From: Candidatus Saccharimonadota bacterium
GTDB taxonomy: Bacteria; Patescibacteriota; Saccharimonadia; Saccharimonadales; Saccharimonadaceae
NCBI GenBank assembly: GCA_027312225.1
Contig: DAICXK010000002.1
Span: 367 to 64,366 of the forward strand
Length of the DNA: 64,000 bases
Direction: 5' to 3'
The notes under the pieces were generated by a model that worked only from the letters and a program-made list of their open reading frames with translations, was not told where the DNA came from and did no database searches. Positions 111 to 9,794 of this stretch are shown piece by piece (within the stretch, counting starts at the first letter, position 1; each line of letters opens with the position of its first letter). A program made the translations under genes and the position numbers.

Positions 111-272
111 ACTCCAAGTACGGATGTTCTTGAGGAAAATCCATCAGATGAAGAGTCAGAGAATCCAAGCTCCGAGTATTACGAAAGTTCGTGATACAAA
201 AGCTAGCTTTGTAAATATGTCTCCTGCCGGGTGTTGCCTCGCAGGGGGTTCTCTGTTACAATACATAACGAT

Positions 273-488
273 ATGGTACAAGTAACACGTAAAGACGAAC
301 GCGAGGCGAACGAAAACATTATTCGTCGTTTCAACCGCAAGGTGTTGCAGAGCGGCGTGCTCGCAGAGGCAAAAGCTTCAATGCGATTCAGCAAGCCTCT
401 TAGCAAAACCGAGCGACGCCAGAAGGCGATTATCCGCAAAGAGCGCAAGGCAATCAAAACTGCTAACGCACGCATGGGGATTCGCTAA
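273..488 (+). CDS. rpsU: 30S ribosomal protein S21
   Basis: MVQVTRKDEREANENIIRRFNRKV...RRQKAIIRKERKA is typical S21. Internal ATG 273 preferred over 231; promoter-like TTGCCT-N17-TACAAT upstream. Confidence 0.9.
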   Translation: MVQVTRKDEREANENIIRRFNRKVLQSGVLAEAKASMRFSKPLSKTERRQKAIIRKERKAIKTANARMGIR

Positions 489-491
489 AAG

Positions 492-944
492 GTGGCTCTT
501 AAAGAGCAAATTAATAACGATCTCAAAGCCGCCCTTCTAGGCGGCAATCGTTTTGTCGCAGACACACTGCGCAATTTAAAGGCGGCGATTCTCAACGAAG
601 AAGTGGCCTTAGGACGACGAGATGAAGGCCTTGGTGATGCTGAAATCGAAGGCATTATTGCTCGTGAGGTTAAAAAACGAGGTGAGAGCAAAGCGCTGTA
701 CGATCAAAACGGACGCCCAGAGCTTGCCGAGATAGAGCAGAAAGAAATAGACGTACTGGTGGCCTATCTGCCGCAACAATTGACAGAGGATGAAGTTCAG
801 ACTGTCATCAACGAGGTCATCGCCGAGATCGGTGCGACCGATATGAAGGCAATGGGCCAAGTGATTGGCGCAGTCAAGGCTCGCACGGGTACGGCAGCAG
901 ACGGCGCAACTGTCGCAAAACTTGTAAAAACAACGCTACAGTAA
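492..944 (+). CDS. yqeY: GatB/YqeY domain-containing protein
   Basis: GTG start; YqeY-like sequence with the typical LPQQLTEDE...GATDMKAMGQVIGAV segment. Confidence 0.85.
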   Translation: MALKEQINNDLKAALLGGNRFVADTLRNLKAAILNEEVALGRRDEGLGDAEIEGIIAREVKKRGESKALYDQNGRPELAEIEQKEIDVLVAYLPQQLTEDEVQTVINEVIAEIGATDMKAMGQVIGAVKARTGTAADGATVAKLVKTTLQ

Positions 945-6225: not shown

Positions 6226-6231
6226 TATAAT
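6226..6231 (+). promoter_or_regulatory. -10 hexamer TATAAT for the NUDIX-ileS leader
   Basis: ggtgTATAATtatcgcc about 205 nt upstream of the NUDIX start. Confidence 0.6.
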
Positions 6232-6237
6232 TATCGC

Positions 6238-6423
6238 CAGAAACGTCCGAGCGGCTATCACCCGCGAGTTTTGGGAAGAAATCTTTCTGGAGAGACTAGA
6301 CCCCAACGGTAATCGACCTGTCAGATCGAACAATAAAGTGCGAAATGAGACAAATCTCTTTTTCGAAACTGGATGGTACCGTCCGAGATATCGGATTCCA
6401 GTAGCGATAAGGAGATTTTTTAT
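6238..6423 (+). ncRNA. T-box leader, isoleucine (AUC specifier), ultrashort stem I, probably translational
   Basis: Stem I GCGG-CTATCAC-CCGC with ATC in the loop (6251-6265); antisequestrator CTGGA-TGGTACC-GTCCGA-GATA-TCGGAT-TCCAG (6369-6401) with the 7-nt UGGUACC bulge; SD AAGGAGATTT (6409-6418) complementary to AAATCTCTTT (6353-6362) with one G-U. Confidence 0.9.
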
Positions 6424-6435
6424 TTGGAGAAAGTT

Positions 6436-6885
6436 ATGAGCAAGATAAGTAAAAGCCCAAATCCAAGAATAGGCATCGGTACGTTTGTTTTTAGGAACGG
6501 TAAGTTTCTCATGCAACAACGACAAGGTTCGCATGGTGAGGGGACATGGTCGGTACCGGGTGGCCATTTAGAATACGGCGAAACACCTGAAGATACGTCG
6601 CGTCGTGAAGTACTAGAGGAAACAGGGTGTGAGATTAAAAATATACGGTTTGCTGCGGTAACGAACGATTTTTTTGAAGGAGAGAACAGGCACTATGTCA
6701 CCTGGTGGACAATGAGTGATTGGAAGGCGAATGAGCCGTACATTACCGAGCCAGACAAGTGTATCGCGCAGATGTGGGCTGATTTTGATAATCTACCCCA
6801 GCCGCTTTTTCTACCTTGGGAGCAGTTACTGAAAAGTAAATTTTTAGATGATATCAAACGCGAACTGAAAAGGAGCAAGCAATGA
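6436..6885 (+). CDS. NUDIX hydrolase (NUDT15-like)
   Basis: Nudix box GGHLEYGETPEDTSRREVLEETGC; possible in-frame TTG start at 6424. Confidence 0.9.
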   Translation: MSKISKSPNPRIGIGTFVFRNGKFLMQQRQGSHGEGTWSVPGGHLEYGETPEDTSRREVLEETGCEIKNIRFAAVTNDFFEGENRHYVTWWTMSDWKANEPYITEPDKCIAQMWADFDNLPQPLFLPWEQLLKSKFLDDIKRELKRSKQ

Positions 6886-9794
6886 AATTCAAGCATGGAA
6901 CCCGCCGTCGCGCGCTCGAATACGAGAAAGATTGGGCGCAGCGCTGGAAGCAAGACAAGACATTTGAGAAATCGGTCGAAAATCGACCGGCTGACAATGC
7001 GTATGTATTTTATGACGGCCCGCCGTTTATCACCGGTGTGCCGCACCACGGCACGCTGCTCAGCAGTATCGTCAAAGATGCCGTGCCACGCTACTGGACG
7101 ATGAAAGGCAAGCGCGTCGAGCGCGTCTGGGGTTGGGACACGCACGGCCTGCCAGCCGAGAACTTTGTCGAAAAGCAGCTGAATATCGTGGATCGTCGGC
7201 AGATTGTGACAAGTCCAGACGAAAAAGCACCACTTGATAAGGACGGCAATCCGCTTGCGACCATCTCGTTAGAGCAATATATCACCAAGGCTCGTGAATC
7301 AATGGTAGCAAACGCCGAGACATGGGAAGATGTGGTTGATCGTATCGGCCGCTGGGTAGATTTCAAGGGCGCCTATAAAACCATGGACAAAGATTTCATG
7401 GAAAGTGTTTGGTGGGCGTTCAAAACTTTATATGAAAAAGGCAAGATTTACGAAGGCGAAAAGGTTCTCATGTATGATACGCGTTTTGCCACGCCCGTCA
7501 GTAAAAACGAAGTGACGATGGACAATGATGCGTATCAAACAGTGACCGATCCAAGCTTGTATGCCAAGTTCAAGCTAGCAGATAGCGACGCATATGTGTT
7601 GGCATGGACAACGACACCATGGACGTTGCCAGCGAACCTGATGCTGGCAGTCAGTCCAGACTTGACGTACTGTGAGGTTGAGGTAGCTGGAGAGAAATTG
7701 GTCATCGCTGAAGAAGCCCTAGAGCGTGTGTTGAAAGACGAGAAAAACAAGCCGCTAGAGTATACGGTCCTGCGAAAATTCCCAGGTAGCGAACTGGCTG
7801 GCAAATCATACCAGCCGCTAGACACTGGCAGCACATGGCCAGAAAGTAATGCTATCCACAAAATATACGCTGCTGATTTTGTCTCGCACGAATCTGGTAC
7901 GGGCATTGTTCACTGTGCGCCAGCTTACGGTGAAGACGATTTCGAACTGGGCAAGGCCAACGGTATCGCTGCGTTCCACGTTATCGATGATAACGGGTAC
8001 TACGTCGATACTAACTATCGAGGCCTGGAAGTATGGGATAACAACAAGTTTATCGCCAAGGATTTGATGGAAAAGGGTATCGGCTGGAAGATTGAATACA
8101 TCCGCCACGAATATCCATTTAACCCCCGCAGCGGACAGCGCATCATGTATCGTGCCATCCCATCGTGGTTCTTCGATATCCAGGACAGCAAGTCGCTGAT
8201 GCTAGAGCAAAACGAGCATATCAATTGGTTCCCACCACATCTCAAGGATGGGCGATTTGCGAAGAATATCGAGCAAGCACCAGATTGGAATCTCAGTCGT
8301 GATCGTTTTTGGGCAACGGCGATGCCGGTATGGAAAGGCGACAATGGCACGGTCAAGGTTATTGGCAGTTACGCTGAGCTGAAAGAACTGAGCGGTGTTG
8401 AACTTGATGACTATCACCGTCCGTGGGTTGACGACATTACGTTTGCGATTGACGGCGAGAAGTTCACACGCATCGACAAGGTACTTGACTGCTGGTTTGA
8501 ATCAGGCAGCATGCCATTTGCGCAGTTGCATTATCCGTTCGAAAACAAAGAAAAGTTTGAGGCAAACTACCCAGCAGATTTCATTGTCGAATATGTTGGT
8601 CAGGTTCGCGCATGGTTCTATTATGTTCACGCGGTTAATACGGCCCTGTTTGGCAGTGAGGCGTTCAAGAACGTTATCACCACTGGTGTGGTAGCTGGTA
8701 ATGACGGCCGCAAAATGAGCAAGTCACTCGGCAACTTTACTGATCCAAACGAACTGATGGACAAGTTTAGTGCTGACAGCCTGCGATTCTTGCTGCTGAG
8801 TAGCCCACTACTGAAGGGTGAAGATTTTGCTTTGCACGATAAAGATGTTGGTGATGTGGCACGTAAACTTAGTATGGTCTGGAACATGTATGACTTCTTC
8901 ACAATGTATGCCGAGGTAGATGGCTGGGAGTTTGACAGTAGCAAACCGTTTACATTGAACCCAGACAATGTCACAAATCCAATGGACAAATGGATCATCA
9001 GTCGCGTACATCAGCTGAACAAGCAGGTTACCGAAGACATGGATGGCTACAATCTGCCTGACGCGATGGCGGATATCCTGCCGTTCCTTGACGATGCCAG
9101 TAACTGGTATGTACGTCGTAGCCGCCGCCGTTTTTGGAAGTCAGAGGATGATGGTGATAAAAACGAAGCCTATCGTACATTACATTACGTGCTATTAAAA
9201 CTCAGTGCATTACTAGCACCATTTACACCGTTCCTTGCCGAGGAGCTGTATCAGAATTTGGGTGGAGGAGGAGAGTCGGTACACCTACTGGACTGGCCAA
9301 CGAATTATACGGTCGATCAGCGGGTGCTTGATGAGATGGCCGAGGTGCGTGGCTATGTTAACGAAGGTCTTAGTCTGCGTGCGAAGGCAGGTTTAAAGGT
9401 GCGCCAGCCTTTAGCGAGCATTACGGTACCAAGCCTTGGTGCTAGTATCGACTTCACGCCGATTCTTCTGGACGAGTTAAACGTTAAGGAAGTCAGGCAA
9501 GGTGATGAGGTGGCGATTGACGAGAACCTAACGCCCGAGCTGCGACGTGAGGGTCTGATGCGCGAAGTGGTTCGTCACGTTCAGGCGGCTCGCAAGAACG
9601 TCGGACTGCAGGTTGATGATCGCATTAATTTACATCTTTTAACGGAGGGTGCCGAATTGGCCGAGGCAATTGCCGAACACCGTGATGCAATCTACGCCGA
9701 GACATTGGCAGTTGGCGATGAGGTGGCTACGACTGACGCTGTGATGGTAAAGATTGAGGGCACCGAACTGGCAGTTTCGCTGGAAAAGGCGTAG
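6882..9794 (+). CDS. ileS: Isoleucine--tRNA ligase
   Basis: HIGH-like PHHGTLLS, GWDTHGLPAE, GRKMSKSLGNF; overlaps NUDIX by 4 nt; no C-terminal zinc ribbon seen. Confidence 0.95.
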   Translation: MKFKHGTRRRALEYEKDWAQRWKQDKTFEKSVENRPADNAYVFYDGPPFITGVPHHGTLLSSIVKDAVPRYWTMKGKRVERVWGWDTHGLPAENFVEKQLNIVDRRQIVTSPDEKAPLDKDGNPLATISLEQYITKARESMVANAETWEDVVDRIGRWVDFKGAYKTMDKDFMESVWWAFKTLYEKGKIYEGEKVLMYDTRFATPVSKNEVTMDNDAYQTVTDPSLYAKFKLADSDAYVLAWTTTPWTLPANLMLAVSPDLTYCEVEVAGEKLVIAEEALERVLKDEKNKPLEYTVLRKFPGSELAGKSYQPLDTGSTWPESNAIHKIYAADFVSHESGTGIVHCAPAYGEDDFELGKANGIAAFHVIDDNGYYVDTNYRGLEVWDNNKFIAKDLMEKGIGWKIEYIRHEYPFNPRSGQRIMYRAIPSWFFDIQDSKSLMLEQNEHINWFPPHLKDGRFAKNIEQAPDWNLSRDRFWATAMPVWKGDNGTVKVIGSYAELKELSGVELDDYHRPWVDDITFAIDGEKFTRIDKVLDCWFESGSMPFAQLHYPFENKEKFEANYPADFIVEYVGQVRAWFYYVHAVNTALFGSEAFKNVITTGVVAGNDGRKMSKSLGNFTDPNELMDKFSADSLRFLLLSSPLLKGEDFALHDKDVGDVARKLSMVWNMYDFFTMYAEVDGWEFDSSKPFTLNPDNVTNPMDKWIISRVHQLNKQVTEDMDGYNLPDAMADILPFLDDASNWYVRRSRRRFWKSEDDGDKNEAYRTLHYVLLKLSALLAPFTPFLAEELYQNLGGGGESVHLLDWPTNYTVDQRVLDEMAEVRGYVNEGLSLRAKAGLKVRQPLASITVPSLGASIDFTPILLDELNVKEVRQGDEVAIDENLTPELRREGLMREVVRHVQAARKNVGLQVDDRINLHLLTEGAELAEAIAEHRDAIYAETLAVGDEVATTDAVMVKIEGTELAVSLEKA

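Follow-up and report, generated by a model that had tools for sequence, protein, structure and literature searches.

Background

Among the closest described counterparts of the leader analyzed here are the class III ileS T-boxes of Actinobacteria (e.g., Nocardia farcinica and Mycobacterium tuberculosis; 6UFM and 6UFG). Class III is defined by a short stem I, and like class IV it acts "mostly" on translation, which is not an absolute requirement (PMC10482949). It has been argued that T-boxes acting on transcription need a long stem I, catching the tRNA in time, and that a short stem I can be slow since it acts on translation (PMC7583486, which also defines the RRRxG-stem III-AA motif); according to reviews, a short stem I combined with a terminator platform is an atypical pairing. 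As for taxonomic range, TBDB applied its short-class model to Actinobacteria and to truncated class I matches (PMC7778990), and the table of a 2008 survey has no CPR phylum among its entries (PMC2494555). In a literature search of partial coverage, no paper was seen to describe T-boxes from Saccharibacteria, TM7, Patescibacteria or CPR.

Here we describe a leader in a 64,000-nt stretch (the window) of contig DAICXK010000002.1 from a Candidatus Saccharimonadota metagenome-assembled genome (MAG). From the sequence comparisons reported below, we consider it quite likely that a tRNA-Ile T-box of class III build controls transcription of the NUDIX-ileS unit by attenuation.

Results

Leader and gene context

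The leader is located upstream of a NUDIX hydrolase gene, the end of which is overlapped by the start of ileS (Table 1). Sequence between T-box and ileS is present in some genomes and absent in others; in the window it is the NUDIX gene, while the gap in several relatives (L032, L034, L037, L042, L061 and others) holds several hundred extra bases that probably represent one or more genes. The leader is predicted to start at approx. position 6238; its promoter has a weak -35 element, and a promoter scan of the window did not call the TATAAT hexamer. Among 43 leaders adjoining a start codon (the window leader and 42 relatives, no more than 125 nt from the start codon), 38 have TATAAT or a close variant as a -10-like hexamer, at most 75 nt 5' of stem I and often near -25 (raw count); the window leader is one of these 38.

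Table 1. Features of the leader and its neighboring genes (positions in the window)
Feature	Position	Strand	Details
VKOR-family gene	ends 6209		upstream neighbor of leader
-10-like hexamer TATAAT	6226-6231	+	TG before it; 25 nt 5' of stem I
Stem I	6251-6265	+	GCGG-CTATCAC-CCGC; 4 bp, 7-nt loop CUAUCAC
AUC (Ile) specifier	6257-6259	+	in stem I loop
Stem II	6271-6306	+	lower helix 6271-6275/6302-6306
S-turn-like AAGAA/CUAGA	6276-6280/6296-6300	+	in stem II; judged from sequence
Stem IIA/B pseudoknot	6307-6329	+	IIA 6307-6308/6319-6320; IIB UCGA 6313-6316/6326-6329
Stem III and flanks	6336-6367	+	AAGUG 6336-6340, C6341..G6365, AA 6366-6367
Terminator base helix (putative)	6353-6365/6405-6417	+	one U-U mismatch; encloses T-box hairpin
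T-box hairpin	6368-6402	+	A1 6368-6373/6397-6402; A2 6381-6386/6391-6396
T-box bulge UGGUACC	6374-6380	+	between A1 and A2; UGGU complementary to tRNA ACCA
U-tract T6 of putative intrinsic terminator	6416-6421	+	directly at helix end
Likely Shine-Dalgarno (SD) GGAG	6426-6429	+	6 nt before ATG 6436; outside terminator helix
NUDIX hydrolase gene	6436-6885	+	PF00293, E = 9.2e-20; first gene of the putatively controlled unit
ileS (isoleucyl-tRNA synthetase)	6882-9794	+	TIGR00392, 767.6 bits (cut-off 621.4)

A default-threshold Rfam scan of the window gave no T-box match, because the leader scores below the RF00230 gathering score of 93 bits. The sequence-only reading of this locus had called for an RF00230 scan; run permissively, RF00230 matched positions 6249-6422 (+ strand) over its full length (31.9 bits, E = 1.5e-5, though below the gathering score), and this was the only match in the genome. 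The cut-off is strict, as 5-6 control genomes match the model and only 2 exceed the gathering score; among genomes of the same family, 48 of 151 contain RF00230 matches. A model of our own (R1), built from 35 leaders, scores the window leader at 143.6 bits, which is by construction as the window is among these 35. Overall, apart from the Rfam score, every sequence criterion tested identifies the window leader as a T-box, and it probably senses uncharged tRNA-Ile.

The sequence-only reading had described an ultrashort Ile T-box ahead of ileS in a CPR (Saccharibacteria) genome; the full-length RF00230 match and the covariation presented below bear this out, as does the class III anatomy, i.e., a short stem I without the elbow-binding module, an apical specifier, a stem II with an S-turn (by sequence) and a IIA/B pseudoknot. 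Stem I with its AUC and the UGGUACC hairpin were found where that reading had placed them, and the segment that it likened to a stem II/linker (ACTAGACCCCAACGG, 6295-6309) comprises the 3' side of stem II and the start of IIA. The AUC specifier agrees with the ileS gene downstream, and the RRRxG-stem III-AA motif is found before A1 in the form AAGUG-C..G-AA. The UGGNACC bulge matches the NCCA end of the cognate tRNA as represented in relatives, where tRNA-Ile(GAU) genes (one from the same genus) encode an ACCA end; these genes lie near tRNA-Ala(TGC) in 5 of 5 cases checked. Of 33 tRNA matches in this MAG, 30 loci were typed and none was a tRNA-Ile, and a pattern search for GAU-type tRNAs yielded only a CAU-type match.

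Conservation among relatives

We fetched 80 ileS loci from records with Saccharibacteria or generic MAG titles, most of which showed a recognizable T-box before ileS or a few hundred bases before it. From these and the window, we aligned 35 leaders that share one kind of platform; they were picked for an AUC, a stem I of 3 pairs or more, and a T5 run, so that the alignment is no independent test of these three features and the support for stem I and AUC is partly by construction. In a list built on the T-box core alone, AUC and stem I were seen by eye wherever stem I was included.

Stem I is paired in 100% of cells, with two-sided changes at 2 of its 4 pairs, and is flanked by conserved GA; class III T-boxes have a K-turn at the base of this stem. 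The lower helix of stem II is 96.6% paired, with all 5 pairs changed on both sides, and its AAGAA is conserved and mostly faces AGUAGA. In the pseudoknot, IIA is nearly invariant, and IIB has 4/4 pairs changed on both sides and is 74% paired on MAFFT columns. Stem III, which also covaries, is paired in 97% of cells over 4 bp, with a predicted hairpin energy of -7.1 kcal/mol in the window and a mean of -6.8 over the 35 leaders; A1 is 100% paired (4/6 pairs changed on both sides) and A2 92.6%.

When helices were combined into the two competing states, the tRNA-bound state (stems I, II, IIA/B, III and T-box hairpin) had 94.3% of cells paired and both partners changed in 22 of 30 pairs, with a covariation score of 0.535 (0.21 shuffled, up to 0.09 slid), and the terminator state (outer helix and T-box hairpin) had 94.6% of cells paired and 20 of 24 pairs changed on both sides, with a score of 0.653 (0.274 shuffled, up to 0.16 slid); because the 35 leaders are related, the shuffled controls overstate significance, and the slid controls retain the relatedness. 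RNAalifold finds the outer helix unprompted. The sequence-only reading was to be given up if stem I or the antisequestrator lacked covariation; covariation was found in every helix, stem I being partly a picking criterion.

Expression platform

The 5' arm of the A-U-rich terminator base helix doubles as the 3' strand of stem III. In the window, the predicted energy is -30.1 kcal/mol for the full terminator fold and -20.6 kcal/mol for stem III with the T-box hairpin, and on average predicted energies favor the terminator fold by approx. 13 kcal/mol; stem III must therefore be held by ligand or time. A simple terminator scan of the window did not call the leader terminator, as its loop limit of 8 excludes the enclosing shape. 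At alignment columns 126, 149 and 198, the triplets GCG, UAU, UGC and CGC keep both pairings in 31 of the 35 leaders. This is three-way covariation: one strand is kept complementary to two partners, stem III and the outer helix.

Among 84 distinct leaders, 56 were classified as having an enclosing terminator, 22 as classical (the A1 3' strand pairs downstream) and 6 as other or unscored. A cruder shuffle test of the enclosing helix was passed by 50 of 82 leaders, which beat all 20 shuffles; the failures were mostly classical or other leaders, along with some classed as enclosing (e.g., L002, L037, L073 and L085). A group of largely gut-derived Saccharibacteria (L046, L051, L053, L054, L056 and similar loci) combines the same short sensor with a classical A1-based terminator (TTCCAAT..ATTGGAATTTTTTT). 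Several leaders (L010, L019, L025, L027, L040, L041 and L043) have the T-box core UGGUAAC rather than UGGUACC; in L019, L025 and L027, a hairpin CCCGCCC..GGGCGGG lies ahead of the T-run.

The elements, their covariation, the competing helices and the positions of U-tract and SD were read from sequence; tRNA binding, actual termination, switch direction and use in the organism are what we infer. In the mechanism we propose, stem I (with AUC), stem II and the IIA/B pseudoknot would hold the anticodon of tRNA-Ile, and UGGU in the T-box bulge would hold its free ACCA end. An uncharged tRNA would lock the discriminator (AAGUG-stem III-AA and A1/A2), stem III would retain its 3' strand and the polymerase would read on. 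With the tRNA charged or absent, the downstream CGAUAAGGAGA would take the 3' strand of stem III (UCUCUUUUUCG), and the resulting long helix, enclosing the T-box hairpin and ending at U6, would stop transcription. As the T-box hairpin is intact in both folds, base pairing alone leaves the direction of the switch unfixed.

Attenuation could also be set by A1/A2 dynamics, or by bound tRNA sterically excluding the outer helix, with stem III competition being secondary. The classical A1-based terminator in 22 of the 84 Saccharibacteria leaders is consistent with this, as are some loci from outside the class (e.g., L168, L171 and L181) where, by eye, the enclosing helix follows right after IIA/B with little stem III; the three-way covariation, together with a well-formed stem III in 34 of the 35 aligned leaders, argues against it, and we regard this account as unlikely while still giving it some weight.

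A run of at least five T between T-box hairpin and start codon was found in 42 of the 43 leaders adjoining a start codon, a set for which the T-run was no criterion (2.8 expected after shuffling). The sequence-only reading had paired AAATCTCTTT with AAGGAGATTT and proposed that this gates translation. The pairing is real, as part of the longer terminator base helix; the gating is not supported. A translational class III T-box, in which a helix AAATCTC/GGAGATTT would hide the SD AAGGAG until uncharged tRNA stabilized the antisequestrator and freed it, would fit the usual role of a short stem I (PMC7583486, PMC7778990, PMC10482949). AAGGAG (6409-6414) does lie inside the helix, with the ATG 21 nt further on, and could serve an in-frame TTG at 6424; taken by itself, the window thus leaves room for translation control. 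However, the SD of the ATG itself is outside the helix, an SD-like motif occurs in the helix 3' arm of only 10 of the 35 aligned leaders, and in 42 of 42 scorable leaders, window included, a search of the 20 nt ahead of the start codon places the SD on the 3' side of the T-tract. Because relatives keep helix and U-tract with the SD beyond, translation control is disfavored and appears improbable; SD sequestration was rejected on the SD and U-tract positions in the window and its relatives, and control of translation initiation is a class III trait that this leader probably lacks.

That the locus is the decayed remnant of a T-box, or an ordinary terminator at an operon border that resembles a T-box by chance, would suit its score below the Rfam gathering cut-off and is nonetheless very hard to credit given covariation in all helices, a conserved UGG core and phylum-wide agreement between specifier and gene.

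Distribution among Patescibacteria

R1 matched 145 of 198 genomes of the order and 112 of 380 Patescibacteria genomes. Counted from the table, 32 of these 112 belong to the class, and the other 80 to 35 families outside it. With rough E-values and a model trained on Saccharibacteria, these counts are no census. Twenty of the better matches outside the class (L168-L187) were all short-stem-I T-boxes before ileS or valS, with the specifier-gene pairs AUC/ileS or GUC/valS in 19; the exception, L178, has an AUC-like loop ahead of valS. An enclosing helix and U-tract were seen in several of these loci (e.g., L168, L170, L171, L177, L181 and L187), where outer helices were judged by eye and automatic detection is unreliable. 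The sequence-only reading had raised transfer between epibiont and host; since T-boxes of this kind are present in most genomes sampled from the order, and in 35 Patescibacteria families beyond the class, there is no need to assume a recent transfer from an actinobacterial host. On balance, we think it probable that the short-stem-I T-boxes of ileS and valS are old and spread throughout the Patescibacteria, that they act by transcription attenuation, many with an enclosing terminator round an intact T-box hairpin, and that the Saccharibacteria version switches through capture of the stem III strand.

Some other loci differ in target or type. In Saccharibacteria locus L003 (approx. 240-560, reverse strand), a T-box before a gene that was assigned by eye as ValS-like has a long classical terminator, GTCCCTCGGTCTCTATATC...GATATAGAGACCGAGGGAC, then TTTT. 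RF00230 matches before a ThrS-like gene (L013, L026 and L031, near 1500-1800) represent a different T-box type, with a UGGAAC core seen in L013 and L026. The IleS frame of L186 (1-2100, - strand) matches TIGR00392 only to residue 507; the same frame then stays open through residues 509-661, a phosphatase-like domain (TIGR03162), which may reflect a fusion or an assembly error.

Implications and comparison with known T-boxes

If this reading is true, stem I length is uncoupled from the level of control and the range of class III extends well beyond Actinobacteria; a short sensor with a terminator would also provide a direct test of the kinetic argument on stem I length. It further suggests that CPR epibionts with reduced metabolism sense their supply of charged tRNA, and the leader could serve as a natural regulatory element in a group without inducible expression tools, a stated need (PMC11665869).

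Compared to the class I T-box (the RF00230 archetype, Firmicutes, antitermination), the window leader shares the putative attenuation by a terminator competing with the tRNA-bound discriminator. Unlike class I, it is without a long stem I and elbow-binding module, and whereas class I terminators use the A1/A2 3' strands, as the class I-like classical terminators of the 22 relatives do, the terminator of the window and most relatives encloses an intact T-box hairpin and would capture the stem III strand.

With the actinobacterial class III ileS T-box, the window leader shares a short stem I with the specifier in its apical loop, an S-turn-like AAGAA/AGUAGA stem II (by sequence), the IIA/B pseudoknot, RRRxG-stem III-AA, the UGGNACC hairpin and ileS as target. 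It differs in its 7-nt specifier loop (5-6 nt in actinobacterial class III), in its host phylum (Patescibacteria vs. Actinobacteria) and in its platform, a U-tract terminator instead of an SD sequestrator. These comparisons suggest that the sensor is of the class III kind and the expression platform of another.
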